From the NCBI RefSeq assembly GCF_032854445.1, contig NC_088298.1, positions 2,164,160 to 2,228,159 of the forward strand: 64,000 nt of DNA, given 5' to 3'. This document shows, piece after piece, positions 35,669 to 63,866 of the stretch; position 1 is the stretch's first letter; each line of letters starts with the position of its first letter. The stretch is from Liolophura sinensis (taxonomy: Eukaryota > Mollusca > Polyplacophora > Chitonida > Chitonidae). Position numbers and translations under genes: made by a program. The notes below the pieces were generated by a model. It was not told where the DNA came from, searched no databases, and was given only the letters and a program-made list of their open reading frames with translations.

Positions 35669-35726
35669 ATCTGAAGTCTGAATGTGTCATAAAGCGAAAA
35701 ATTAAAATGAGTAAAATACAACGCCC

Positions 35727-36849
35727 ATGGTGTATAATGTACCCATGATGTATAATGTACTCATCGTGTATAATGTATTCATGGCGTATAATGTACTCAT
35801 GGTGTATAATGTACTCATGATGTATAATGTACTCATGATGTATAATGTACTCATCGTGTATAATGTATTCATGGCGTATAATGTACTCATGGTGTATAAT
35901 GTACCCATGATGTATAATGTACTCATGGTGTATAATGTACCCATGATGTATAATGTATTCATGGCGTATAATGTACTCATGATGTATAATGTACTCATGG
36001 TGTATAATGTACCCATGGTGTATAATGTACTCATGGTGTATAATGTACTCATGGTGTATAATGTACCCATGATGTATAATGTACTCATGGTGTATAATGT
36101 ACTCATGGTGTATAATGTACTCATGATGTATAATGTACTCATGGTGTATAATATACCCATGATGTATAATGTACTCATGATGTATAATGTACTCATGGTG
36201 TATAATGTACCCATGATGTAGAATGTACCCATGATGTATAATGTACTCATGATGTATAATGTACTCATGATGTATAATGTACTCATGGTGTATAATGTAC
36301 TCATGGTGTATAATGTACCCATGATGTATAATGTACTCATCGTGTATAATGTACCCATGATGTAGAATGTACCCATGATGTATAATGTACCCATGATGTA
36401 TAATGTACTCATGGTGTATAATGTACCCATGATGTATAATGTACTCATGGTGTATAATGTACCCATGATGTAGAATGTACCCATGATGTATAATGTACTC
36501 ATGGTGTATAATGTACTCATGGTGTATAATGTATTCATGGCGTATAATGTACTCATGGTGTATAATGTACCCATGATGTATAATGTACTCATCGTGTATA
36601 ATGTACCCATGATGTAGAATGTACTCATGATGTATAATGTACTCATGGTGTATAATGTACTCATGGTGTATAATGTACCCATGATGTATAATGTACTCAT
36701 GGTGTATAATGTACCCATGATGTATAATGTACTCATGGTGTATAATGTACCCATGGTGTATAATGTACTCATGGTGTATAATGTACCCATGATGTATAAT
36801 GTACTCAAGATGTATAATGTACTCATGGTGTATAATGTACCCATGATGT
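35727..36849. repeat. 18-bp tandem array, about 62 copies
   Basis: Perfectly phased 18-bp units of the form ATGRTGTATAATGTACYC, varying at a few positions (A/G, T/C, TCATCG, TTCATGGC, TAGAATG for TATAATG). As 18 is a multiple of three and most units lack stops, frames of 416 and 385 codons on the minus strand and 164 on the plus strand are open. They encode hexapeptide repeats only (YIIHHE, MSTLYT, MVYNVL). Treated as a satellite. Confidence 0.97.
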
Positions 36850-47547: not shown

Positions 47548-48188
47548 TTATTTTTTTATGGGCAATTTCCCCGTCTCTACGAACATTTTCAGTTTCAGCA
47601 TCTCTACTAAGTTCAGGGAGAAAGGTTCAGCTTTTAAAATGTCGCCTTTGTCGCGGAACAGAGCTTGTAAGTATCCCCCATCTATCTCCATCTCCACAAA
47701 CGGCTCTACTTTTTTCCGCAGTCCTAGCGTCCCAAGCGCCGCTCTCACCTGCTCCACGGAAAGCGTCTTTAACTTTTCACCCCAATCACTGCCAGTCGGA
47801 TTAGAGTAGCCACATGCCCCTACCAATGGGCTGTCTTGTCTCTCCGACACTTGCCCTTTGGTGTCTGTGATTTTTGATTTCTGAGGTTTGGCATTATCTG
47901 AGACTAGTTCTAAATAAGTAGGCTTTCGAGCCTTTCTGTCGATAGTGGCCAGCGGTGTACCTGCAGTAGTTTGGGCTCCTGACCCCAGGGGGCGCACTGC
48001 CTGCGAGGGTTTGGGTTGTGTTTTGATGGGTTTCTGATGGACTCTGGGTTGTGGTAAGCCTTTTGAATATGTAAGCTTGCCTGAATATGAAGCCTTTCCT
48101 GAAGGTGAAACCTTGCCTAAAGGTGAAACCTTGCTCGTGGGTGAAACCATGCCTGAAGGTGAAACCTTGCCCGTGGGTGAAACATTAC
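47548..48188 (-). CDS. Terminal exon: Ser/Pro linker and SAM domain
   Basis: The minus-strand acceptor is CCTTTTCTGATCGCAG at 48189, and the exon opens in phase 1. The first residues are imperfect repeats of VSP-x-GK type (GNVSPTGKVSPSG and so on), followed by a basic, proline-rich linker with a tyrosine in KPTYLELVSD. The last 75 or so residues form a SAM domain: KTLSVEQVRAALGTLGL, then FVEMEIDGGYLQALF with the IDG-x-x-L signature, then EPFSLNLVEMLKLKMFV. The stop TAA is at 47550-47548. GAREM proteins end in a SAM domain. The VSP repeats are encoded by a run of related 18-bp units around 48070-48185, which suggests local tandem slippage inside coding sequence. Confidence 0.8.
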
Positions 48189-51100
48189 CTGCGATCAGAA
48201 AAGGTCATGCACAATCGTCTAATATAATTCAAGATTTGCCGCGATATATGTGTTTGTGGGTAATCAGTCTTAAATACACTGTGCCTCAGCAATTTCTTGT
48301 TGCTTTAGATTCATTTATTTGTTTGTTTGGCGTTTTGCGCAGTACTTAAAGGTGGAGAAAATATAAAAATGACATAAAGTTAGAAAGAGTGCGAAAAATT
48401 ATTCCCAAATGTGGTCTTCAATATTTTTTTCCGATTTTTCCTTAAGGAAAAAAAGACACTTTAAAATAATCTTTCTATAGTGGTTATTTGGGACAACCTT
48501 TTGGTATTTATAGTCTTTGTTTAATAATGTCATAAATGAGGATGAAACACAGGTTTAATAAATATAGAACAAATGTATTAAACCTCAATCGGGATCATAT
48601 TTATATTCATAAATATTATCATAAATTACGTTAAATGCATATGTTTCGATATAAACAACAAATTTACATTCAAATGAATTTATTTGAACATTATTATACA
48701 ACAAGGATAAATATCAAAAGTTGGTCCCAAATACCCACTATACAATAATATTGTAAAATACCCTTTTCTCTTAAAAAAAAAATCCAAAAAAATATTAAAG
48801 ACCATATTTGCAAATAAGGTTTGAGGTTCTTTTATCTGATTTTTGCATCAATTTTATGTTTTCTTCTCCTTTAAGAATATTTCACCTACACAATAGCAGC
48901 CAGCATTATCGTGGGAGAAAAAAACCTACGTTCGATGAAAATACAAAAAATGTATCGGCTTACATTTCACTCTTATTTTATTCCTCCAGAAAATGTATCG
49001 GTTAACTTCCATGCCTATTGTTTTCTCGGTTCACTTTCCGGACTTACTGTTTTCCCCAGGAAATGTATCGGCTTACTTTATACACTTCTGTACTTTCTTA
49101 AGAAAAAAATATCGGTCAACTTTCGTGCTTACCGTTGTCTCCAGGCAATGTATCGGCTTACTTTATACACTTCTTTTCTTTCTCCAGCAAATATATCGAT
49201 CAACTTTCATGCTTACCGTTTTCTCCAGGCAAAATATCGGATTACTTTTTATATTTATTTTCTTTCTCCAAAAAATATATCGATTAACTTTCATGCTTAC
49301 TGTTTTTTCCAGGCAATGTATCGGCTTACTTTATACACTTATTTTCTTTCTCCAGAAAATATATCGATCAACTTTCATGCTTACTGTTTTTTCCAGGCAA
49401 TGTATCGGCTTATTTTGTACACTTATTTTCTTTCTCCAGAAAATATATCGATCAACTTTCATGCTTACTGTTTTTTCCAGGCAATGTATCGGCTTATTTT
49501 ATACACTTATTTTCTTTCTCCAGAGAATATATCGATCAACTTTCATGCTTACCGTTTTCTCCAGGTAAAATATCGGCTTACTTTTTACACTTATTTTCTT
49601 TCTCCAAAAAATATATCGATCAACTTTCATGCTTACTGTTTTTTCCAGGCAATGTATCGGCTTACTTTATACACTTATTTTCTTTCTCCAGAAAATATAT
49701 CGATCAACTTTCATGCTTACTGTTTTTTCCAGGCAATGTATCGGCTTATTTTATACACTTATTTTCTTTCTCCAGAGAATATATCGATCAACTTTCATGC
49801 TTACCGTTTTCTCCAGGTAAAATATCGGCTTACTTTTTACACTTATTTTCTTTCTCCAAAAAATATATCGATCAACTTTCATGCTTACTGTTTTTTCCAG
49901 GCAATGTATCGGCTTACTTTATACACTTATTTTCTTTCTCCAGAAAATATATCGATCAACTTTCATGCTTACCGTTTTGTCCAGGCAAAATATCGGCTTA
50001 CTTTTTACACTTATTTTCTTTCTCCAAAAAATATATCGATCAACTTTCATGCTTACTGTCTTCTCCAGGCAATGTATCGGCTTACTCTGTCCACCTCTTT
50101 TATTTCTATAGAAAATATATCGATCAACTTTGATGCTTACTGTTTTCTCCAGGCAATGTATCGGCTTACTTTATACACTTATTTTCTTTCTCCAGAGAAT
50201 ATATCGATCAACTTTCGTGCCTACTGTTTTCTCCAGGCAATGTATCGGCTTACTTTATACACCTTTTTTCTCTCTCCACAAAAAATATCGATCAACTTTC
50301 ATGCTTACTGTTCTTCTCCAGGCAATTTATCGGCTTACTGTATACTATTATTTTCTTTCTCCAGAAAATATATCGATCAACTTTGATGCTTACTCTTTTC
50401 TCCAGGCAATATATCGATCAACTTTCATGCTTACTGTCCTCCCCAGGAAATATATCGGCTTACTTTGTACACCTCTTTTTTTCTACAGAAAATATATCGA
50501 TTAACTTTTATGCTTACTGTTTTCCCAGGCAATGTATCGGCTTATTTTATACACCTCTTTTTTTTTCTCCAGAAAATATATCGATCAACTTTCATGCTTA
50601 CTGTCCTCCCCAGGCAATGTATCGGCGTACTTTATACACTTATTTTCTTCCTTCAGAAAATATATCGATTAACTTTTATGCTTACTGTTTTCCCAGGCAA
50701 TGCATCGGCTTATTTTATACACCTCTTTTTTTTTCTCCAGAAAATATATCGATCAACTTTCATGCTTACTGTTTTCCCAGGCAATATATCGGCTTACATG
50801 ATACACTTATTTTCTTTCTACAGAAAATATATCGATCAACTTTCAAGCTTACTGTTTTCTCCAGGCAATGTATCGGCTTAGTTTCCACAGTTATTGTTTA
50901 TTGAAAATTTATGGGGTTACTTTTCACACTTACCGTTTTGTCCGGGGGTACAAGGAAGAGGCCGTAGGTAATTCCCCTGTCTTTTTGGCCTGTTGGATCT
51001 CGAAGGAACCGATGGCGGCGAAATAGGTGTAACGTTTACGTGATCTGACAAATAAACACGACTGGTTGATTAACTGGCGGTATATTTGATAAATGATTGA

Positions 51101-54100
51101 TCCATGGACTATTTTCTTTATTCTTTCATTCATTCTTTTAACTTGTTCAATTTTGCTCGTTCTTTATTTCGTTAATTCATTCGTTCGTTCAATCATTTAT
51201 TTATTAAATCACTCATTACGTCATTAATTTGTTCACTAATTCATCAATTCATTGATCAGTTTGTTTATCACTGCATTCAAGCATGTATTCATCGGTGCGT
51301 ATAACCACTCTTCCATTCACTAATTCATCAATTCATTGATCAGTTTGTTCATCACTGCATTCAAGCATTCATTCATCAGTGCGTATATCCACTCATCCAT
51401 TCATTAATTCATCAATTCATTCATTCATTCATTCATCCCTTCAATCTTGATTTCTGAGTATGACATAAAATGCATACATACATACGTACATAAAATCACA
51501 TGCATACTTATTCAGTTCAACAGAGGCGACAGCTTTATTTAGATGATTTAAAAGGTCCTTAAACATGGTGGTAAAATTTTACCAATCCATAAAAGGCAAA
51601 GAAAACACTGATGTGAAGTATATGTCAGATCAAAAACCACTAAACACTGTCCACAAAAATAGTTTAATTCATTCTTTTAGAATATTTTCAGCTCAATCAA
51701 ATGCAATTGAAAAAAATTCTACGGTGGCCTTTCAGACAATGGGACCATTGACGTCACATCAGGTTTTTGCTACTTAACACACTTTGACTGCCACATTTCT
51801 TCATTAAAACTGCATATACATACAGATTTATGAATAGATTCGCCGAATGGACCTGGAAACAAGCTATTTCAAGCAAAAAGATGTGACGTCACTGATACCT
51901 TCTGATTCGCAACAAAACCCCGAAGAATCGGTTTGACGTTTTCAAAACATTTTACTCCGTTCCTATAAATATAAATCGGACAATTTTCTTGGACCGATTT
52001 TTAATGGTCTTTCATCTGGCGTACGTTTCATTTCAGTGTTTTCTTTGCCTTTCATTAAAATTAATTTTATTTATTTATTTATTTATTTGATTGGTGCTTT
52101 ACGCCGTACTCATGAATATTTCACTTATACGACGGCGGTCAGCATTATGGTGGGTGCAGACCGGCAGAACCCGGGGGAAACCCACGACCATTCGCAGGCT
52201 GCTGCCAGACCTTCCCACTTACGGCCGGAGAGGAAGCCAACATGAGCTGGACTTGAACTCACAGCGACCGCATTGGTGAGAGACTCCTGAGTCATTACGC
52301 TGCGCTAGCGCGCTAACCAACTGAGCCACGGAGGCCCCAAAAATCAATTTGACGAATTAATGTCGAATTTCGTCACACATGAGACTCGTTCTGACATTTT
52401 GCCAATCTTCTACCCCTCCTGTTTTTGAGACAGCCGCGTGGTAAAAGACTTCTATGCTTCGCTTGTCTTACCACAGAATGCTTTGAAATTTGCTTGCAAG
52501 CAGCTAAACACCTACACCAAATAAAAAATAAACGCTATCAGTGAAGGAATATCAAAGCACCCAGTCGGTTAGCGCGCTAGCGCAGCGTAATGACCCAGGA
52601 GCCTCTCACCAATGCGGTCGCTGTGAGTTCAAGTCCAACTCATGCTGGCTTCCTCTCCGGCCGTAAGTGGGAAGGTCCGTCAGCAACCTGCGGATGGTCG
52701 TGGGTTTCCCCCGGGCTGTGCCCGGTTTCCACCCACCATAATGCTGGCCGCCGTCGTATAAGTGAAATATTCTTGAGTACGGCGTAAAACACCAATCAAA
52801 TAAATAAATAAATCAAAGCATCCAAACCTTATGGAACTTTTGAAGATTTGACTTGAAATCATCGGAAAAAACTAAGAGTAACATCAAAAACGGATGATTT
52901 TTAGTTAATAAACAATGCACGCGCATTCAAGTTATAAAACTTGAACAATGCTAGTAAGCTAGCACTGTTACTCTTTTGTCACTAGTATAAAAGTCGGATG
53001 AATTTCGACAATACTTTCTGGAATCGGAAGTCTTCTAGCTCTCAGAATACATACGTATATACGACTATTCAATAATTTTCTGTTAGAAAACAAAACCCTA
53101 ACTGAGGTCAACTACCACCCGGCACATAAACTCGGTATAAAAGGCCCAAATTAGGTCATACAAGCTCTCTATAGAAGACAAAATTAGGTCCTGCAAACTC
53201 TCTACAAAAGACAAACCTAGGTCATACAAATTATCTGTAAAATTCAAAATTAAGTCAAGCAAACACTCTATAAAAGCCAAAATTAGGTCGACAAACTCTC
53301 TATAAAAGCCCAAATTAGGTCATGCAAACTCTCTCTGAAAGCCATAATTAGGTCACGCAAACTCTCAATAAAAGCCAAAATTAGGTCATGCAAACTCTCT
53401 ATATAATCCAAAATTAGGTCATACAAATTCTCTATAAAAGCCAAAATTAGGTCATACAAATTCTCTTTAAAATCCCAAATCGCATAAATTCTCAAAATGC
53501 CAAAAGTATTTTATTTTCAGGAATTTTTTTCCATGTGGTAGTGGATCAGGCAGAATTTACCTTTATGCCTCAATAAAGTAGTTATTTGATTCACGCCATA
53601 GTCAAGTCACGCCATTTACTTATACAAATTCGTCAACCTTTATTCGAGACTGGTAGATCCAGGGTCAAACCTTGATCGAGTCACACCTAAGACTTTAAAA
53701 GAGGAAGTTGTAACTTCCTCGCTTGGCATTCAGAATGAAGGGGATAGTGCAACTATTGTTTGACCCGTATCAGTATAATGGCTCGGGCGGGGCGTCTTAC
53801 TTGCCTTCGGTAAGTTGTCTCAGTGAAGCAGCACTAAATAAAAGAGCGGTGGAAATCCGTCCTGCAACAAGGAGGCACATTCCACGTACATGCACCCTAA
53901 GGATTCCTTCGTCGTCATATGATTGAAAAAATTGTTGATTACGACGTTAAACCCCAAGCACTCACTTACTCACTCAACCACCACTACGATCTATATTTTG
54001 AAACATTCTGAGAAAATTATATAGTGTAATGAAATCATTTGCACAGATATTTAAACTTTACAGCTTTAGTGACAAAAATAATATCATTTTAGGGTATAAT

Positions 54101-54846
54101 TATCATAAAAATTATATGCATAAATTCCCCTGAAAAATGCTTTAGTGGTTGAAAATGACCTCAGATGTCGTCAAGTTGTACAGTTTACCCGCTCCTCGGG
54201 GTTCTATTGATCTTAGAAAGGTGTTTTGAGTTTTGTTTGACAGGTACGATCATATCCGCCTGGAACAATGGAAGTTTTAGCACCAAGAGTAATATGCTCT
54301 TCTTTGCACGAAATTTTAGATCAAATACCGTAATTCAGTTTTATTTCCAAGACGACATGCAGCTGAGCTGAGTTGGTGAAACTCATAACTTGTCATTTGC
54401 CAAACCCCATGTATGGGAAGATGCATAGACGCAATGACTTGTGAGTTGTATTTTCAGTTACACATTATATTAGGAACTGGACAGCCACACCCTCTTCCTC
54501 TTCCTATACAAATAAAAAATATTCTTGAATTTGCAAACTTATCGAACTTAACTTCAGTGCTGATTAAAGACAGATATACGTCTCCCAAAATCTCGCATGC
54601 GCAGGAAGTCCCTTCCGCAATACATGTATGTATGCCGCTTATTGATCCGCTAGAGAATATTAGCAATTTTTCGCTCATCACTTACCACTGCGTTGTTCAG
54701 GGTGATCACTGCTGGTACGCCGAGAAGGCCTTGGAGGGGGACGTGGTGGACTTGGGATCCCGCCTGAGTGTTGTCTTGGGGTCAGTAGTGGAGGCGAATT
54801 GCCCGAAGCCTCATAGAAATCTAAAGACAGAAAAAGATATGTGTGA

Positions 54847-54902
<56 letters not shown>

Positions 54903-54937
54903 ACACACACGTGTGTGTGTGTGTGTGTGTGTGTGTC

Positions 54938-54970
<33 letters not shown>

Positions 54971-57900
54971 CAGTGAGAACGGGGGAATGCACAAATCAAT
55001 TGTCAGTGAGAACGGGGAATGCACAAATCAACTGTCAGTGAGAACGGGGGAATGCACAAATCAACTGTCCAAGGCAGGAGTTGAACCCCTATATTTGGTC
55101 CTATACCGATTAAAAGAGTTGCGCTTTTAACATCTCGGATCTCAAACTCGCTCTAAAAAACGAGCGAACGGACAGACGGATGGACGGACGGAAGACGAAC
55201 GGACGAACGGACGGAGAGACGGACGGACGGACAGACGGAGAGACGGACAGACGGAGGGACAAAACAACGACAGCATATCATTCGGCTAAAGTAAAACGGT
55301 TTAATATGTGTAAAAAGAAGATATCGGCTCGATGAGGCTGTCTAAATCTGTATTCAGTGCAGCATATCTTTCGATCAGACTTTCAGCAAACCTCTCAGAA
55401 AAGCTTAGTATGTAACATTCCTCTTAAAATGACCTATTTTATTTACTGCAACCCGCTACTAACTCCCCCACCTCACTTTAGCTCTACATAGTTGTCAAAC
55501 AAGAATATTCAGTACATGGGGTAATTCTATGATTATTCCATTTATATTATATGCAAACTTCCTGGATGCGCTTGGCACGGAGCTCAGTCCGCTAGTAATT
55601 GTCACATGTGTGCCATCCACATTTATCATTCTATTTTAGTAGAGTCATGGACAATGCCGCGCGCGCGAGGGCACAACTGCTACTTTATTGGCCAGAAATT
55701 GAATGTCAGCAAAAGAGTAGGGCGTATAGAAATTTGGTATCGTTCCATGTAACAAGCATCATGCACGACTGCTTTCGAAAATCCATGTAACGCCACCCTG
55801 CGATCGTTCATCATATATTAAAACTATAATAAGACAAACAAAAATCGTCTATCAAATTTCTGACATTCTGTCGATTAACATAGGCCTTTCACTTAACACG
55901 GAATCTTAGTACAAGACGAATTCGATTGCAGCGAACTCAAATTTGCGCTTTCCTTGGATGATTCTGAATTTGACTAATAAGCAGCTAATGCATATCAGCA
56001 TACTTAGTATATGTCACACTTAACACAGATCGACCACAAAAACTAGTCCATACTTATGACAAGACAATTTAAAATTTTATAAAATTATATTTTCATATAA
56101 TTAGTGTATTATACAAGTTCCCGAGATATTTCGCTGACACGAAGACCGCCGGGTTAGTAGCGGAAGGAAACCGGATAAATACTCTAATGTTTTGAATTTA
56201 CGCCCTAATATGGCAAATAAATATACACTCCAACATGCTGCATTCTTTTACACTTCACGACATAATATTTGAAACCCAAGCAAAGTAAAAAGGCCACAAG
56301 TAAATGCAATATTTAGTTTGGCAGCAATGTTGAAAACAGATATCATACATAGTTTCCATGTGTGCGTTCAAAAGATCATGCAACAATACTTGTTACGAAT
56401 TTGTCTAATATGTAAATTGTAATTAGCATCACTGCATGTTTTTTTTTTACCTCATTCTGTTTAAGCAATGGTACTAATTTGCTACTATTTATGCATTTAC
56501 ATGAACAGTCAGAATAAAACCCTGACTGAGGTGAATTGACGAGTGGCCCTGTTTCGCCTGTTAGTCACCATTTTACCAGTTGTCGCACCGTCGTCGTTGC
56601 TGTAGCTTTGCTCCCTGTGCGGTACGTCTTTAATTATATCATAAAGATGAAACAGCAAGCCTTACAAATATAAATAATTCTCTTACAAGCATGAGAATAT
56701 TGTATGAGATAAACTCACCTGGAATGTCTAGAGTTTCCCAAGTCAGGGTAACAATAGTCTGAAATAGAGAAGCGGGAAAAAATCATTGGATCTGCTGTGA
56801 TTTGTGCTAAGATCAAAACAAGAGTTGGTAAGGTACATTATAAGGTTATCCGAAAGGACGATAAAAGGGGCCTCCGTGGCTAAGTTGGTTAGCGCGCTAG
56901 CGCAGCGTAATGACCCAGGAGCCTCTCATCAATGTGGTCGCTGTGAGTTCAAGTCCAGTTCATGCTGGCTCAATCTCCGGCAATATGTGGGAAGGTCTGC
57001 CAGCAACCTGCAGCGGGCTCTGCCCGGTTTCTTCCCACCAATCGGAAGCGCAAGCTGGATTTAGAGTTGGTTATAGTACGGTGGACAATATATTCACGTT
57101 GTGAGCTTGTATTCAAAAACATTTTTCCAAGCGCAAAGGTAAATTGTATTTAGCATTTGTTGACTTCAATAAAGCCTTTCATTCGGTTAATATTAAACAA
57201 CTTGCTTTTTGTTATATCCAGTTACGATCTTTGCGGTAAAACGTTATATTGTCTCAAAGGTATATACAAAGAGTTAAAAAACAACATTTGTTGTTTTCGC
57301 TTTTCATAAATCAAGATGTCTCTTTAGAATGCAAAGATGGTGTACAGCTTTTCCCAGATATACCAGAATTTGTGTCTCCTGATATTTGGAGACGACGTTG
57401 CGCTATTTACTTTTACGACATTAGGTGTGCAAAAACAACTGGATACTCTTCACGAATATTGTTATACAATGGGATCTTCATGTAAATGTTTCGAAAACAA
57501 AGGTAGTTGTATTTAGGAAGGTGGCAGGTTGTGTAACTCTGAGAAATGGACAATCGGCTCGAAGACTCTGGATGTGGTATCTTGCTGTTAATATTTAGGT
57601 ACAGATTTCACTCTAAAGCTTAGTCTTCAAAATGCGACATCTCGACTTACATCACAGAGAAAGAGAGCAATTTTGTAAATCTTACGCACAATGTGGCACT
57701 TGGGTGACATGCAAATTAAAACTTACTTTAAACTGTTTGATGTCAAAGTTATGCCCATTTTAACGTATTCACCACAACTGTGGGGCTTTCAAAGGTTTGA
57801 AATACTGGAACGATTTCAATTTTTGGCTTGTAAAAGATGGTTAAAATTGGAAATAGTATTCCAAATGTTATATCACTGGGCGGGCGACTGTGGTGGATAC

Positions 57901-60900
57901 CCAATATTCCGTTTAACAGCGATTCAATGTTTCAAATATTGGTTCAAGCTATTGCACATGCCCAACAGCAGATATCCCTCAAAAATATACACAATGTTGA
58001 GGCATCTTGGTAGCGAAGGCAGACATACATGAGCTACAGAAGTAAGACGGTTGCTTAACACCCTGGAACTTGCTTATCTTTGGGTCAACCAAGGAATAGG
58101 TAACCAAACAAAAATTCTATGATTAATTAAGCAACGTTTATTTGGCAGCTTTCAACAACAACAGAGAAATACTCTATCTTCCAGTACATGGTACAAACTG
58201 TGTAGCATGCATAGAGCTGATTTCAATATAGAATGCTATATAAAGGTAATTAGAGAAGGTAATTATTGACGTGTTTTGACAAGATTACGTGTTGGTCAGC
58301 TGACCTAAATGTGGACACCGGCAAATTTTCAGGAGTCGCACGAGACAAAGGAAGTGTAACCTTTGTAGTTTAGTCTGTACTGAAGACTAGTACCATGTAG
58401 TTATGATATGTCCGCTGTACTGAAGACTAGTACCATGTAGTTATGATATGTCCGCTGTACTGAAGACTAGTACCATGTAGTTATGATATGTCCGCTGTAC
58501 TGAAGACTAGTACCATGTAGTTATGATATGTCCGCTGTACTGAAGACTAGTACCATGTAGTTATGATATGTCCGCTGTACTGAAGACTAGTACCATGTAG
58601 TTATGATATGTCCGCTGTACGAAGATATACACCAGGAATATTTACTATCTAAATTTATTCTAAACAGAACAGTACATCGTTTTATACGTTGATGGCAAGT
58701 AACTCTCTGAATGTATTACTAGGTCTGGCTAAATTTTGCCACATAGCACAGGAAAGACTTGAACAATGTGTTGTCATAAGACCGCTGGGCAAGGGAGCTC
58801 AATTCAGTAATTCTAGATGGCAGTTATGCCATATACCTGTATGTCTTTCATATGTGTATGGTCCTGGTTGTTGTATGTACAGATATGCACGAATGCGGGC
58901 CTATGGCCTATTATAGTGTCAATAAAGTCTGCTACTACAATAATATAGCACTTCTTATATAAATGTCAAAGTCTACTCTCCTAACACCACATTATACGAA
59001 CAGCAAGAAGCCACTGCTGTCGCATTTTGCATCATAACTGTCTAATTCCGCTCAACCCAAGGCAATGGGTTTTATATGCATCCTTCTGAATTAGATCGTC
59101 ACTTTGGGTATGTGAACACTTGCAATCACATCTCAACTGAGACACATATTTAGATGAATGACAACTGATAAACTAGCATGGTACACGATCTGAGTACCGT
59201 TTTCAGTCATTCGCCTAGAACATTCATTCCTTCATCAATTTTCTTTTTGCATGATTCCGTCCTAATTTTGCTCTTTATATATTTTCTCACGTGATTTGTG
59301 CTGAACGTTCTTTTGGAAATTGGCCTTGTGAGCGTCCATTTTGGAATGGCTGGCATACTACACGAATGTCTGTTTTGACGCCTATATTTCAAAGTTTCCA
59401 AACATATGGGGTTAAAGTATCACATACATGGCAACAGCGTCATAAAAGTAACAATACTTACAAGTATTAAAGCTTTGTCCCAAAAACGTTTTGGTATTCG
59501 AATTCCTGATCAGTTAACTTGTCAACATATCAAACACCAAAAACTGATTACCTATCAAAAGATTTTCCTTCGAGATTATTAGACTGATAAGGATCTTCTT
59601 TATGATCTGCACGAAAGCTTAAGAGTTTGTCTTCTTTCTACGGAAATACTTGAAGCTACAGTCTCGCAGCACGTTTTTCTCAACAAACATCTGACAACAT
59701 TTATTTATTTGATTTATTTATTTATCTGATTGGTGTTTTACGCCGTACTCAAGAATATTTCACTTATACGACGGCGGCCAGATTATGGTGGGTGGAAACC
59801 GGGCACAGCCCAAGACCATCCGCAGGTTGCTGCCAGACCTTCCCACTTACGGCCGGAGAGGAAGCCAGCATGAGCTGGACTTGAGCTCACAGCGACCGCA
59901 TTGGTGAGAGACTCCTGGGTCATTACGCTGCGCTAGCGCGCTAACCAACTGAGCCACGGAGGCCCCTATCTATTTGATTGGTGTACTCAAGAATATGTCA
60001 TTTATACGACGGCGGCCAGCGTTATGGTGGGAGGAAATAGGGCAGAGCCCGGGGGAAACCCGCGACGATCCGCAGGTTCATCTGACGATATAATCAGGGA
60101 ATATATATACATATGTATTATATAGATACTTTATTGCACAAGAATACACACAACAGACAAAAGATCATGCATTACTTTTTCGGGCATTTCATGGACATTT
60201 ATGGGCATGGCGTTGCATTAAGTTTCTTCTAAATGGACATTTACAAAAATGACACTGCATTACGTTTCCTTAAATGGACATTTACCAAAATGGCATTATA
60301 TTACGTTTCCTTAAATTCGTTTCCGTAAATGGACATTAAGAGCATGGGGTTACATCACGTGTTTATAAATGAACATTACAAAATATTCCCTTGTATTACA
60401 TTTCTTAAATCGACAATCAAAAGTATGACCTTGCGTTACGTTTTTGTAAATGGACGTTAGAGAACATGTCCTCGCTTTAAGTTTCCCTAAATAGGCATTT
60501 AACATCACGGCCTTGTATTGCATTGCGTATTCCTAATTTGACATTTAAGAACATAGCGCTGCATTACGTTTTCCTAACTGGATATTTAAGAACACGACAT
60601 TGGTTTATGTAGACATATTTATATTTCAATACTGCTTAGCCTTTGCCACTCTGTTTATTTGCACCTGACACTGTTTACAGTGTGGGACACAAAAGACTGT
60701 CTGTCAGTGTTATAGCTAGTTTGCTTACATATTGTGTTACCAACATATCCGTCGTACCACAGGTATGGCACGACATTGTGACGAATTTTTTATGGTGCTA
60801 CCTAACCACAAACGCTGAAGACTGGTGAACTGATTGCTTCACTACACCAAGATGCGAACTATCGTTTTCAGGGTGATTCAATACGATTGCTGGGAATTCA

Positions 60901-62502
60901 AGTCCAGCTCATGCTGGCTTTCTCTCCGGTTGTACTTGGCAAGGACAGCCAACAAGCTGGCCATGGGTTTCCTTTGGCCTTTGCCCAGTTTCCTCTCATC
61001 ATAATGTTTGTGCCATCGTATAAGTGAAATATAAAAGAAATTTTAATCAAATAAATAAATAAATAAATAAATAAATCTTTTGGTGACACGCTAACACCAC
61101 AGCCTTACTTAACTGAGGAAGCTCTCCGCCAAAAGAAATTCGAGGTTAAGCTTTGTAGCCTGTTTCTCATTCCTGCCTTGGGTGGTGACGTTTTGTGAGC
61201 AAACTGGTGACTTACTACCCATGAAGTTAACATGCAACTGTTACATAACTGTTGTGTTCTGATCATATAATGTTCTTGGTAATTAGAAATTTACACAAAC
61301 TATTTTTATGTTAGACATCTCCTTATGAATTTTTAGTGTTTTTTAAATTTTGTTGCTCATTGTTATATTGCATTATGTATAAACCAAGAAGAGAATAACG
61401 AAACCCAATGCCAGTCTACTTACCTGACTCAACCGTCTGGCTGAGCTTACTACCCTGTACCTCCATGTACAGCCCGCCCAGACTGACCGTGTCCAAGTTG
61501 GCTCGGAAGTTCAGGGAGATAAAGGACTGGTAGATAGATGTCTCTCTGTTTGTAGCCACCTGAAACAGGGCGTCCGACGTATGGGGGATGATGACTACCG
61601 CCTGATGGGACTTGTACGTTTCCATCTCTTCCTGGCTGCTGCTGGGTTCTTTCACCGCCTGCTGACTTTCGGACACGTCCACCGCCGGCTGTCGTTTGCC
61701 CGTGTCCTCTAGATCCAGGCGGTGAGTTCCGAACGCCTTGTATTCGGATTCTATTCTATCCAGAACAAAGTGACCCTGGAACTGATCCATGTTGGCCAAG
61801 GCCACATGCACCTCCTTGGTCACGAACTTTTCGTCCTGCACGAAGTCTTTCCTCAGCTCGATGAGCTGTGGGAGACAGAATCTGTTGATGATTTCCCGGA
61901 AGGTGTAGGAGGTCGGGTCTCTAACTGCAACGAAGTTTCCTCGGCAATCTGGCTCCAGTTCCAGTTCGTGACGATCGTACCTACACAGCAAGCTCACAGA
62001 CTTCGTCGTCAAGTTCTTAGTAGTGCGGACCAACTCCAGCGGACTTCTCGCTGGCACAATCACTATCTCCCGGGTGTGAAGGTGTCTGCCGTAAATCGGC
62101 TTGTTGCCCACCGCTACATACCTCGGCATGTCTGCGAACAAACTCTGGACGGTCGGGGTACCGTGTGTCACCACCGATGGTCAGGACTCTAGCCTTCTTC
62201 CGGTAGTCAAGCGGTATTAAGATGGGAGAGGAAATGTTCTTGTAATTTTTCAAAGCCCACTTCTTGGTGTGTCCGGATTCGATTGGATAGGCGACTACTT
62301 TCTCCAGCCTTTCACATCGATGAAGTTTCAGCAAATCGCCGTTGGAGAAGGATTCTGTGTCCTCGGTGGAGTAGACCCCCTCCGCTACCTTCACCAGGCA
62401 CGGTAGATCGTGCACATCTACCAGCTCGGATATCGTGTACAAATTCTCACTCCATGTCAAGCCCTCGTCACACCCCGGCACATCCTCAGGCAGATTCGCC
62501 AT
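47548..62502 (-). CDS. CABIT-SAM adaptor gene (GAREM/THEMIS-like), multi-exon model
   Basis: Spliced gene model on the minus strand: exons 62502-61424, 54820-54686, 51044-50934 and 48188-47548. Every intron interrupts a codon after its first base, so the four exons join in one frame of about 654 codons after ignoring one extra base in exon 1. The order CABIT domain, proline-rich linker, SAM domain is that of GAREM adaptors, which bind GRB2 and regulate receptor-tyrosine-kinase/MAPK signalling in vertebrates; THEMIS proteins share the CABIT and proline-rich parts but lack SAM. Vertebrate GAREMs are somewhat longer (about 870 residues), so exons may be missing here; 56758-56719 is one candidate. 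A cytoplasmic signalling adaptor is inferred from the family. The introns hold the LINE, SINEs, MITEs and arrays listed separately. No promoter was recognised, and no AATAAA was seen just downstream of the stop. Confidence 0.72.
48309..48930 (-). mobile_element. SINE type A split by a MITE
   Basis: Tail half at 48309-48346 (TTTGTTTGGCGTTTTGCGCA) and body at 48875-48930 (GAATATTTCACCTACACAAT, CAGCATTATCGTGGGAG), in register on either side of the 520-bp insertion. Confidence 0.8.
48351..48870. mobile_element. piggyBac-like MITE inserted in a SINE
   Basis: Long inverted arms of roughly 170 bp: left AGGTGGAGAAAATATAAAAA and TATAGTGGTTATTTGGGACA; right GGTCCCAAATACCCACTATA and TTTATGTTTTCTTCTCCT. 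TTAA at both ends (48347-48350 and 48871-48874) is the piggyBac-type target duplication. It splits a SINE exactly where TCAA in other copies would have become TTAA. About 520 bp and non-autonomous. Confidence 0.85.
48949..50900. repeat. 84-bp (2 x 42) minisatellite filling an intron
   Basis: About 23 copies of an 84-bp unit. Each unit is two related 42-bp halves: AATGTATCGGCTTACTTTAT...TTTCTTTCTCCAG and AAATATATCGATCAACTTTC...GTTTTTTCCAGG. On the plus strand every half ends in a pyrimidine tract plus CAG. Because 84 is a multiple of three and the unit has no stop in one frame, the plus strand is open for 491 codons (48911-50386). This looks like a by-product: the peptide is a hydrophobic repeat with no domain, and the array lies within an intron of the minus-strand gene. 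Confidence 0.95.
50934..51044 (-). CDS. Second proline/arginine-rich exon of the CABIT-SAM gene
   Basis: Minus-strand exon of 111 bases (37 codons). The acceptor is TTTATTTGTCAG at 51045 and the donor AAAACG followed by GTAAGTGTG at 50933. In phase 1 it is open and reads VTPISPPSVPSRSNRPKR then QGNYLRPLPCTPGQN. The first part resembles a proline/arginine SH3 ligand; the tyrosine of NYLRP could be a phosphosite. A second frame is also open (YTYFAAIGSFEIQQAKK) but would run into TAA at the start of the last exon, so phase 1 is preferred. The donor lies only a few tens of bases from the last unit of the 84-bp array that fills the next intron. Confidence 0.65.
51172..51470. repeat. ATTC-rich degenerate repeat
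   Basis: Imperfect ATTC/TTCA tetranucleotide sequence containing a tandemly duplicated segment of about 95 bp (CATTGATCAGTTTGTTCATC and CACTGCATTCAAGCA recur at 51240 and 51335). It lies in the intron upstream of the 37-codon exon. Confidence 0.85.
51592..52051. mobile_element. piggyBac-like MITE, copy C
   Basis: Inverted arms: left AAAAGGCAAAGAAAACACTG with GAAGTATATGTCAGATCAAA; right TTTAATGGTCTTTCATCTGG and TTCAGTGTTTTCTTTGCCTT. Each arm carries TGACGTCA (51749-51756 and 51894-51901). The TTAA termini are mutated in this copy. No transposase. Confidence 0.75.
52066..52338 (-). mobile_element. SINE type A, full length
   Basis: Complete minus-strand copy from (TTTA)n tail to head (ACTGAGCCACGGAGGCCCC on the plus strand). 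AAAATTAATTT before and AAAAATCAATTT after look like a diverged target-site duplication. It sits just past the right end of a MITE at 51592-52051. Confidence 0.93.
52561..52811 (+). mobile_element. SINE type A with target-site duplication
   Basis: Nearly complete copy from GTCGGTTAGCGCGCTAGCGC to the (AAAT)n tail. ATCAAAGCACCCA (52551-52563) before it and ATCAAAGCATCCA (52812-52824) after it form a 13-bp duplication with one mismatch. Confidence 0.93.
53127..53487. repeat. 33-bp tandem array
   Basis: About 11 copies of a 33-bp unit containing AAAATTAGGTCATACAAACT then CTCTATAAAAGCC. As 33 is a multiple of three, the minus strand stays open and reads an 11-residue repeat (FIESLYDLILA-like). 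No start, splice or flanking coding evidence, so it is treated as a minisatellite. Confidence 0.9.
53650..53976 (+). mobile_element. SINE type B, 5'-truncated
   Basis: Same body as 20249-20609 (AAGACTTTAAAAGAGGAAGT, GTCGTCATATGATTGAAAAA, GACGTTAAACCCCAAGCACT) ending in CACTTACTCACTCA. The A-box half of the tRNA-like head is missing. Confidence 0.9.
53977..54680. other. Intronic stretch, nothing recognised
   Basis: AT-rich. The plus-strand open frame from 54413 runs antisense through the proline-rich exon and into the CA repeat; it is treated as a shadow. Confidence 0.5.
54686..54820 (-). CDS. Proline-rich SH3-ligand exon of the CABIT-SAM gene
   Basis: Minus-strand exon of 135 bases (45 codons). 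The acceptor is CTTTTTCTGTCTTTAG and the donor is CAGTG followed by GTAAGTGATG. Both borders are phase 1, so the exon can be included or skipped without changing frame. It encodes FYEASGNSPPLLTPRQ followed by GGIPSPPRPPPRPSRRTSS. The PPRPPPRPSRR core is a classical polyproline SH3 ligand of the kind by which THEMIS and GAREM bind GRB2. The GC-rich exon stands out from its AT-rich surroundings. A long TG repeat lies immediately upstream of its 3' splice site. Confidence 0.75.
54849..54970. repeat. CA/TG microsatellite palindrome beside a splice acceptor
   Basis: About 58 bases of (CA)n on the plus strand, then ACGTGTG and (TG)n, then (TA)n, then more (TG)n. The CA and TG blocks are mutually complementary, so the tract can fold back. 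On the gene's (minus) strand it reads (TG)n ending about 27 bases before the acceptor AG of the proline-rich exon. Confidence 0.95.
54971..55068. repeat. 33-34-bp x3 tandem repeat
   Basis: Three copies of CAGTGAGAACGGGGGAATGC followed by ACAAATCAACTGT, differing by one G. It begins directly after the TG run. Confidence 0.9.
55162..55262. repeat. GGAC/GGAG tetranucleotide repeat
   Basis: Imperfect run of (GGAC)n with GGAG, AGAC and GAAC variants. Confidence 0.9.
55265..56110. other. Intronic stretch, nothing firm
   Basis: AT-rich. A short plus-strand frame at 55647-55790 (MDNAARARAQLLLYWPEIE...) has no supporting context and is not called. Confidence 0.4.
56112..56180 (-). mobile_element. 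Very degenerate SINE type A fragment
   Basis: TCCCGAGATATTTCGCTGAC and GGAAGGAAACCGGATAAAT align to the middle of the SINE on the minus strand. Heavily mutated. Confidence 0.4.
56181..56715. other. Intronic stretch with a dispersed repeat
   Basis: Holds one copy (56425-56545) of the unclassified family with TTACATGAACAGTCAGAATA. The rest is unrecognised. Confidence 0.4.
56719..56758 (-). CDS. Candidate 40-bp cassette exon (phase-incompatible)
   Basis: On the minus strand a pyrimidine-rich stretch ending CTTCTCTATTTCAG precedes 40 bases that end CCAG followed by GTGAGTTT. Both splice sites are near-consensus. The length is not a multiple of three. Entered in phase 1 after exon 1 it reads on into the next exon and meets TGA within three codons. 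Entered in phase 0 it leaves in phase 1 and fits the next exon, but that needs an upstream exon I could not find, or a weaker in-phase donor inside exon 1 (ATGGAG followed by GTACAG). It is a poison exon, part of an unfound exon pair, or a chance match. Confidence 0.4.
56867..57042 (+). mobile_element. SINE type A joined to the LINE remnant
   Basis: Full tRNA-like head (GGGGCCTCCGTGGCTAAGTT) and body, with an internal deletion after CAACCTGC. It stops at TTCTTCCCACCAAT and continues directly into LINE reverse-transcriptase sequence. Confidence 0.88.
57045..58935 (+). mobile_element. Degenerate non-LTR retrotransposon (LINE), 5'-truncated
   Basis: The plus strand holds a broken reverse transcriptase: QAGFRVGYSTVDNIF, then FVDFNKAFHSVN, then WDLHVNVSKTKVVVF, separated by stops and frameshifts. 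After it comes the longest intact piece (57691-58032), starting MWHLGDMQIKTYFKLF and containing PILTYSPQLWGF. Then a cysteine/histidine end (CNLCS..., EDEYHVVMICP) and a final basic region. This order (RT, thumb/connection, C-terminal zinc knuckle) is typical of non-LTR elements; I cannot fix the clade. The endonuclease and start of RT are missing. AATAAA at 58921 lies at the probable 3' end. It is antisense to the host gene, in an intron. Confidence 0.8.
58376..58620 (+). repeat. 40-bp x6 tandem expansion inside the LINE
   Basis: Six essentially identical 40-bp units starting TGTACTGAAGACTAGTACCA, at 58376, 58416, 58456, 58496, 58536 and 58576. One unit encodes the knuckle segment TEDxYHVVMICPLY, so the array grew from the zinc-knuckle coding region. 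Forty is not a multiple of three, so the frame is destroyed. Confidence 0.95.
58936..59690. other. Intronic stretch, unclassified
   Basis: No convincing gene. At 59460-59650 the plus strand reads fragments such as SIKALSQKRFGIRIPDQ with stops; it may be an old mobile-element remnant, not identified. Confidence 0.35.
59701..59966 (-). mobile_element. SINE type A, near full length
   Basis: Minus-strand copy running from the (TTTA)n tail to the tRNA-like head (CTGAGCCACGGAGGCCCC on the plus strand). Slightly shortened in the middle. A second, truncated copy follows directly. The octamer CATCTGAC occurs on both sides of the pair (59688-59695 and 60079-60086), as expected for a target-site duplication. 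Confidence 0.9.
59967..60078 (-). mobile_element. SINE type A fragment abutting a full copy
   Basis: Tail-proximal part of the SINE in the same orientation as its neighbour, ending at CGATCCGCAGGTT. A small deletion removes TTTACGCC. Confidence 0.85.
60180..60612. repeat. Degenerate ~50-60-bp tandem repeat
   Basis: About eight diverged copies of a unit built around AAATGGACATTTA followed by GCATTACGTTTCCT. Copy length varies. No coding potential. Confidence 0.75.
60890..61076 (+). mobile_element. SINE type A, 5'-truncated
   Basis: Starts at the B-box-like GAATTCAAGTCCAGC, then the conserved body, and ends AATCAAATAAATAAATAAAT. The head is missing and the body carries small deletions. Confidence 0.8.
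61080..61418. other. Intronic stretch, nothing recognised
   Basis: AT-rich intron sequence just downstream of the CABIT exon donor. A possible short exon near 61115-61175 was considered and rejected. Confidence 0.5.
61424..62502 (-). CDS. First coding exon: CABIT domain, with a +1 frameshift
   Basis: The start ATG at 62502-62500 has G at -3 and G at +4, and an in-frame TAG lies 12 codons upstream. The first 110 or so residues (motifs LTWSENLYTISELV, HDLPCLVKVAEGVYS, FSNGDLLKLH) and the following roughly 249 residues (TVQSLFADMPRYVAV, ARSPLEL, EPDCRGNF, FREIINRFCLPQLIEL) together read as one CABIT domain. They include the C-x-G-x-F core (CRGNF, near 61930-61945) typical of THEMIS/GAREM proteins. 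The two halves lie in different frames; the shift falls between an in-frame TGA near 62183 and about 62150, and corresponds to one extra base. The exon ends at a consensus donor, TCAG then GTAAGTAG, with the intron starting at 61423 and the codon split in phase 1. The frameshift may be an assembly error or a real lesion. Confidence 0.8.
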
Positions 62503-62569: not shown

Positions 62570-63565
62570 TGCTGGAACCCGAATTTAGAATAACTGAAGT
62601 TAGGCTCAGTTCGCAGATTACTCCGTAGAGCCCCCAAGGAACCTGAAATAAGAATGATTCAATTCAGGCTCAGTTCACACAATACTCAGTAGAGCCCCCA
62701 AGGAACCTGAAATAAGAATGATTCAATTCAGGCTCAGTTCACACACTACTCAGTAGAGCCCCCAAGGAACCTGAAATAAGAATGATTCAATTCAGGCTCA
62801 GTTCACACACTACTCAGTAGAGCCCCCAAGGAACCTGAAATAAGAATGATTCAATTCAGGCTCAGTTCACACACTACTCAGTAGAGCCCCCAAGGAACCT
62901 GAAATAAGAATGATTCAATTCAGGCTCAGTTCACACAATACTCAGTAGAGCCCCCAAGGAACCTGAAATAAGAATGATTCAATTCAGGCTCAGTTCACAC
63001 ACTACTCAGTACAGCCCCCAAGGAACCTGAAATAAGAATGATTCAATTCAGGCTCAGTTCACACACTACTCAGTAGAGCCCCCAAGGAACCTGAAATAAG
63101 AATGATTCAATTCAGGCTCAGTTCACACACTACTCAGTAGAGCCCCCAAGGAACCTGAAATAAGAATGATTCAATTCAGGCTCAGTTCACACACTACTCA
63201 GTAGAGCCCCCAAGGAACCTGAAATAAGAATGATTCAATTCAGGCTCAGTTCACACACTACTCAGTAGAGCCCCCAAGGAACCTGAAATAAGAATGATTC
63301 AAGCCAGGCTCAGTTCGCAGATTACTCCGTAGGACCTCCAAGGAACCTGAAATAAGAATGATTCAATTCAGGCTCATTTCACACACTACTCCGTAGAGCC
63401 CCCAAGGAACCTGAAATAAGAATGATTCAATTCAGCCTCATTTCACACACTACTCCGTAGAGCCCCCAAGGGACCTGAAATAAGAATGATTCAATTCAGG
63501 CTCAGTTCACACACTACTCAGTAGAGCCTCCAAGGAACCTGAAATAAGAATGATTGATGTTAGTC
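62570..63565. repeat. 64-bp tandem array beside the CABIT exon
   Basis: About 15 head-to-tail copies of a 64-bp unit; its landmark GAGCCCCCAAGG recurs at 62628, 62692, 62756 and so on. Copies are nearly identical in the middle and diverge at both ends (for example CCGTAG for CAGTAG, GACCTCC for GCCCCC). The edge nearest the gene lies within 100 bases of the start codon on its upstream side, in the 5' untranslated region, promoter or first intron. Confidence 0.93.
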
Positions 63566-63866
63566 TCAGTTCACAGTCTTCTCTGTAGAACCTCTCAAGA
63601 TCTTCTCCGTATAGGTTCTCAGGAAACTGAGTTTAGAATGGTTGAAGTCTCAGTTCGTATAGTCTTCAGACGGAGTCTTACAGGGGCCTGGATTTAGAAT
63701 GATTTAGGGTAGTGTGAGTTCACAGTGTTCTGCTTGGGTTAAACAGTAGCTTGACAGTAGAGCCTTACAGCCATAGGAGCCTGAATTAAGAACGATCGAC
63801 GTTAGTACTTCGTAGTCTTCTAGCACTGACAACTAGTTTGGCTGTAGACCCACGCAAGGATTTAAG
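63566..63866. repeat. Decayed continuation of the 64-bp array
   Basis: Diverged copies of the 64-bp unit, still carrying TTTAGAATG-like and CTCAGTTC-like pieces at roughly the right spacing. No gene seen. Confidence 0.5.

Follow-up and report, generated by a model that had tools for sequence, protein, structure and literature searches.

The closest described systems are the Garem/Gareml adaptors, whose architecture is given as one CABIT domain, a proline-rich region and a SAM domain (PMC4082722). GAREM is described as associating with Grb2 via a proline-rich region, and Y453 of GAREM1 (LPpYEEL) as fitting a SHP site (PMC8086153). Oyster and mussel genes have already been called GAREM-like in print. 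In the open literature we found no paper on the splicing of an invertebrate GAREM, and nothing relevant on CABIT in molluscs.

How does the locus studied here compare? Within a stretch of 64,000 nucleotides of Liolophura sinensis DNA (the window), we find what is very probably a divergent GAREM-like adaptor gene, predicted to consist of a CABIT exon, two symmetric proline-rich exons and a Ser-Pro-rich last exon that ends in a SAM domain. Below, we describe its exons and domains together with its relatives in the same genome, weigh what a break in its first exon might mean, and turn to the linker, whose small exons set the gene apart from GAREM1.

Exons, domains and relatives in the same genome

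The gene model runs along the minus strand in four exons:

Exon 1, 62502-61424 (-), 1079 nt: ATG at 62502, CABIT, phase-1 donor CAG/GTAAGT; frame break inside.
Exon 2, 54820-54686 (-), 135 nt, phase 1-1: overlapping class II SH3 motifs PRPPPR and PPRPSR.
Exon 3, 51044-50934 (-), 111 nt, phase 1-1: class II motif PSVPSR and class I motif RPLPCTP.
Exon 4, 48188-47548 (-), 641 nt: Ser-Pro repeat, linker with PTYLEL and GYSNP, SAM at 47551-47793, stop at 47550-47548.

All three exon junctions split after codon base 1, and the joined chain, from the CABIT part of exon 1 onwards, stays open until its stop codon at 47550-47548. An earlier, sequence-only reading of this DNA had proposed four minus-strand exons with good splice sites and phase-1 junctions, joined in a single frame. 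Exons, sites and phases are indeed present, as judged by a scan for in-phase exons (see below) and by splice-site ranks: the donors of exons 1, 2 and 3 stand 2nd, 18th and 12th among the 8080 GT sites on both strands of the window, and the acceptors of exons 2, 3 and 4 stand 141st, 371st and 111th among its 7000 AG sites, exon 3 having the weakest acceptor of the model (the site matrices are approximate). The single frame does not hold, owing to one break in exon 1, at 62157-62154. Across the window, Rfam at its gathering threshold gave no match and ARAGORN found nothing.

Directly upstream of the ATG exon lies a repeat array:

64-bp tandem array, 62574-63589 (-): about 16 copies.

It carries the 3′-splice-site-like sequence TTCTTATTTCAG/G at 15 places, so that a series of near-identical acceptors would close a 5′ intron.

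When the two pieces of exon 1 are joined across the break (X X at the join), Pfam recognizes CABIT at 59.2 bits against a cut-off of 24 bits, the profile match that the earlier reading had led us to expect. The frame-0 piece scores 35.9 bits by itself and the second-frame piece nothing; with one X at the join, the first 220 residues reach 66.8 bits. Exon 1 also contains CRGNF, an instance of CxGxF, which we take to be the core of the CABIT family. Pfam breaks the match into two stretches, and the last 144 residues of exon 1 alone yield no Pfam CABIT; no second CABIT domain was therefore found. A PDB search with the CABIT exon returned no relative at E<=10.

Within the assembly to which the window belongs (632 contigs, 609 Mb), a CABIT family search scored seven candidates and revealed at least five CABIT loci above the Pfam cut-off, the window included; such counts are lower bounds. 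The other four are:

L001, C7:31.49M: CABIT locus, open frame 671 aa.
L002, C12:22.23M: CABIT locus, open frame 400 aa; the C12 paralogue.
L003, C7:12.75M: CABIT locus, open frame 702 aa.
L004, C7:29.17M: CABIT locus, open frame 648 aa.

The nearest relative of the window gene is the C12 paralogue, whose frame is unbroken; over the CABIT exon the two are 44% identical by MAFFT and 41% by blastp (220 bits). L001 and L003 pair at 77 bits; blastp finds weak matches of the window gene with L001 (28 bits) and with L004 (27 bits), and a weak one between L002 and L004 (36 bits). Like the window gene, L003 combines CABIT, a proline-rich linker and SAM, but the C-terminal part of its CABIT, the linker and the SAM share one open frame; the N-terminal half of CABIT is weakly matched (E 0.004) about 10 kb upstream. 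L004 has its CABIT in the first half. Pfam's two stretches had suggested that L004 might be Themis-like, an idea dropped because its second half alone gives no CABIT.

The C12 paralogue (L002, L006-L009) was modelled as follows:

C12 exon 1, 22233307-22234453: phase-1 end; donor ranked 52 of 5047.
C12 internal exon (best pair), 22238660-22238791: 132 nt, phase 1-1; donor 5 of 5047, acceptor 8 of 4379.
C12 last exon, starting at 22248115: phase 1; acceptor 67 of 4379; Ser-Pro repeat, PTYRNL, SAM.

Joined, these exons encode 737 aa with zero stops, and the frame is kept without the middle exon. Although it, too, is a prediction from sequence, this model is independent evidence in favour of a phase-1 plan in the window gene. 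The two share a single-exon CABIT, phase-1 introns, a symmetric internal exon, a Ser-Pro repeat, the motif PTYxxL (PTYLEL in the window, PTYRNL in C12) and a last exon with SAM. They differ in the unbroken frame of C12, in its internal exon, which is acidic with DYEPV whereas those of the window are polyproline, and in the proline-rich tail that closes its exon 1. A second phase-1 donor in C12 (22234351-22234453, L007) would drop this 102-nt tail with the frame unchanged. The 18-bp coding minisatellite that opens exon 4 of the window gene (48076-48191) encodes a Val-Ser-Pro-x-Gly-Lys repeat, and a similar Asn-Ser-Pro repeat is present in C12. The genome thus holds at least five CABIT loci, two of which form a GAREM-like pair with the whole CABIT in one exon and a linker built from phase-1 modules.

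Profile comparison supports a SAM domain at the end of exon 4. The Pfam hit that the earlier reading had anticipated did not materialize, as Pfam called no SAM in this exon; what did emerge was similarity to a known structure. Searched alone against the PDB at E<=10, exon 4 gave one match, 2dkz ('hypothetical protein LOC64762'; E 0.068, 16.2 bits), which we take to be GAREM1, also called FAM59A. A profile of the window and C12 SAM sequences found 2dkz at E 1.6e-4, followed by the unrelated chain 2iee (E 0.001) and by weaker matches with SAM domains among them; with L003 added, 2dkz reached E 1.2e-9, 2iee again came second (E 3.7e-4) and several SAM domains followed. With an unrelated chain in second place both times, these E thresholds are not clean. 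The SAM of L003 alone already matches 2dkz at E 1.3e-8 (38.2 bits), while that of C12 alone has tir-1 as its best PDB match (E 0.024), ahead of 2dkz (E 0.035), and Pfam places SAM_2 in it only below cut-off (12.2 vs 20.5 bits). Pfam misses the SAM of L003 as well, so its silence on the window SAM weighs little. A single-sequence structure model of the domain was mediocre (pLDDT 70.6); it matched nothing in the PDB better than E 0.73, and the 50 entries listed of 327 matches were mainly chromodomains, with no SAM among them. The SAM ends in GKLPIKK in the window and in GKLPKMS in C12.

The frame break in exon 1

The frame that begins with the ATG at 62502 is open to 62017 only and, as written, ends after 161 codons, holding just the first quarter of CABIT (profile positions 1-60 of 255). 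CABIT goes on one frame over from 62153, and the phase-1 donor lies in that second frame too. Comparison with the unbroken C12 paralogue confines the break to four bases:

Frame break, 62157-62154 (-): a short C run plus G, where the C12 paralogue has one codon.

With this break in exon 1, the window copy as assembled could not yield the complete protein.

What caused the break? An assembly error and a recent mutation appear about equally likely, each falling slightly short of an even chance. In the first case, the assembly would contain a one-base length mistake in the short C run and the gene would be intact. Short runs of C are a usual place for one-base assembly length errors, the break is located in such a run and the remainder of the gene is open; then again, the run is short, and no such break interrupts the open frame of any of the other four CABIT loci. 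In the second case, the window would hold a null allele or a pseudogene of recent origin, and C12 would do the work. The matching open frames of 400-702 aa at the four other loci, by which such breaks are not seen throughout the family, argue in this direction, as does the break being the only lesion seen, yet enough to end the ATG frame early. Likewise, a DNA search of the genome, queried with the 501 bp that surround the break, hit the window itself and no other place, and at that sensitivity no intact twin was found. A mutation fits less well with the state of all that follows the break, which is open, exons 2-4 included, and has good splice sites. Nor does it sit easily with the differences from C12, which peak at codon base 3 on either side: upstream, base 3 differs in 57% of 108 codons (bases 1 and 2, 43 and 34%), and downstream in 66% of 215 (51 and 36%). 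Such an excess would be expected if constraint had acted for most of the period after the duplication, and it leaves the break itself undated.

A programmed +1 ribosomal frameshift at 62157-62154 is highly improbable, its sole attraction being that both frames are open around the site and a shift would yield the full protein, whereas the old frame meets no stop there, the fold predicted for the 131 nt of RNA that span and follow the site is no better than that of shuffles (z -0.89; 34 of 200 fold as well) and the C12 paralogue manages without frameshifting. A mini-intron across the break was also considered and rejected, because the C12 paralogue retains the residues that it would remove. Whichever its cause, the break is a caution for automatic annotation of the locus.

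Linker exons and splicing signals

Two features in the intron between exons 1 and 2 bear on how the linker might be spliced:

Candidate 40-nt exon, 56758-56719 (-): strongest acceptor-donor pair found, 24.1 bits; length not a multiple of 3.
Inverted repeat, 54970-54848 (-): (AC)n then (GT)n, intronic, ending 27 nt before exon 2.

The 40-nt stretch is not listed in the sequence-only reading; we had considered it for the second exon of that reading, but the phase 1-1 scan identifies 51044-50934 as the other small exon. It may nevertheless be a true poison exon, leading to nonsense-mediated decay, or be joined to an inner acceptor that keeps the frame (54729 in exon 2, 50989 in exon 3), a proposal that we regard as tentative and somewhat doubtful. 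Its donor is the best of the 8080 and its acceptor 22nd of the 7000, and a pair score of 24 or more was reached in none of 60 shuffles and none of nine control stretches. Joined to the main start of exon 2, 3 or 4, it brings a premature stop each time, and the inner acceptors restore the frame by arithmetic, in variants of 44 and 56 nt. On the other hand, the 25 exon-like pairs that score best in the C12 intron include no obvious counterpart, and splice scores by themselves are no proof of use.

Are exons 2 and 3 real? When the 13.2 kb that separate exon 1 from exon 4 were scanned for open phase 1-1 exons, six candidates came up, with exons 2 and 3 as the two best (18.0 and 16.4) and the third at 11.2. 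Sixty dinucleotide shuffles contained a mean of 0.08 such candidates with a score of at least 16, and two together in none; at the same threshold, at most one candidate each was found in eight other control stretches, six of them 13,234 bases long and two 7,698. The alternative, that both are chance open stretches and the true gene joins exon 1 straight to exon 4 or to other exons, is unlikely. It can draw on the 40 kb of C12 examined, where neither exon has a clear homologue, on the modest rank of the exon 3 acceptor (371 of 7000) and on the opposite strand of the same 13.2 kb, which scores seven candidates in the same test; these seven may stem from an 84-bp repeat in that stretch. It would leave unexplained, besides the two in-phase candidates against a shuffle mean of 0.08, a GC content of 0.58 in exon 2 and 0.51 in exon 3 vs 0.33-0.41 in the 2-kb bins of 48001-56000, and an excess of SH3 motifs. 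Exons 2 and 3 together encode four class I/II motifs (PRPPPR, PPRPSR, PSVPSR and RPLPCTP), compared with a mean of 1.0 after residue shuffling (92 of 5000 shuffles reach four); the same motif scan found none in the other parts of the gene.

The 84-bp repeat is a tandem satellite that occupies 49043-50884 inside the last intron, and the long open frames on its plus strand look like a by-product of the repeat. A tRNA-like (SINE-like) repeat, which presumably resembles the SINEs of molluscs, is present at 14 places in the window, including 52104, 52751 and 59743; its tail, CCGTCGTATAAGTGAAATATTCTTGAGTACGG, occurs 14 times (<=3 mismatches) vs 0 expected from shuffles, and three stretches of the repeat had no match in the open papers searched. 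An 18-bp tandem array of about 62 copies lies farther off, at 35726-36849.

Taking exons 2 and 3 as genuine, their symmetry makes frame-neutral skipping possible: the reading frame is kept when exon 2, exon 3 or both are left out. Of the earlier suggestion that the SH3-ligand exons can be skipped without frame change, the symmetry and the neutrality for the frame are thus borne out, and skipping itself may occur. Since these exons carry all four SH3 motifs found, their omission would produce a variant with little capacity for SH3 binding, and a modular phase-1 linker would be a natural design for switching SH3 binding by splicing.

The inverted repeat before exon 2 is predicted to fold into a hairpin of -104 kcal/mol (z -8.9). 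On the transcript strand, its (GT)n part (54910-54848) is read as a run of UG that stops 27 nt short of exon 2, close to the 3′ splice site. A UG run in a comparable position in CFTR is reported to let TDP-43 cause exon skipping (PMC12171016). Like the (TG)m(T)n tract of CFTR intron 8, the UG repeat of the window lies shortly ahead of an acceptor whose exon could be skipped; the likeness is one of anatomy only, and the UG run of the window can pair with an AC run in the hairpin. One could imagine a switch, set by splicing, for the recruitment of Grb2, in which optional SH3-ligand exons would be combined with a 40-nt poison exon silencing the transcript and with an AC/UG hairpin by the exon 2 acceptor that lets a UG-repeat binder such as TDP-43 set the level of Grb2-competent adaptor. 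We consider this scheme, taken as a whole, quite improbable.

Comparison with Themis and GAREM

Themis1/2/3 resemble the window gene in having CABIT and a proline-rich region. They are described, however, with two consecutive CABIT domains and no SAM (PMC4082722), whereas the window gene has one CABIT and none in the remainder of exon 1.

The sequence-only reading had taken the gene for a GAREM-like adaptor, and all three components, namely one CABIT, a proline-rich SH3-ligand region and a C-terminal SAM, are present. The identity needs qualifying, though, as the SAM of L003 is much nearer to that of LOC64762 than is the SAM of the window gene (38.2 vs 16.2 bits), which makes the latter a divergent GAREM-like paralogue, paired with C12. 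Compared to GAREM1 by SAM score, it is probably not the direct GAREM orthologue of the animal.

By analogy with GAREM, the CABIT and SAM ends would place the protein near activated receptors, while SH3 ligands in the linker would hold a Grb2-type SH3 protein. Phosphorylated linker tyrosines might in turn recruit SH2 proteins, the candidates in exon 4 including PTYLEL and GYSNP, and the outcome would feed into Ras/ERK, the protein working as GAREM does. Set beside the ITIM-like phosphotyrosine site of GAREM1 (LPpYEEL), PTYLEL contains YxxL but has P at -2; an ITIM pattern scan misses it because the hydrophobic residue at that position is absent.

In sum, the window gene adds one more adaptor to the CABIT-SAM (GAREM-like) family, ordinary yet well formed; it belongs to a pair of paralogues whose linker is modular and built in phase 1. 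With GAREM1 it shares one CABIT, a proline-rich linker with SH3 motifs, linker tyrosine sites and a C-terminal SAM; unlike GAREM1, it has a Ser-Pro repeat and carries its SH3 motifs on separate small symmetric exons.
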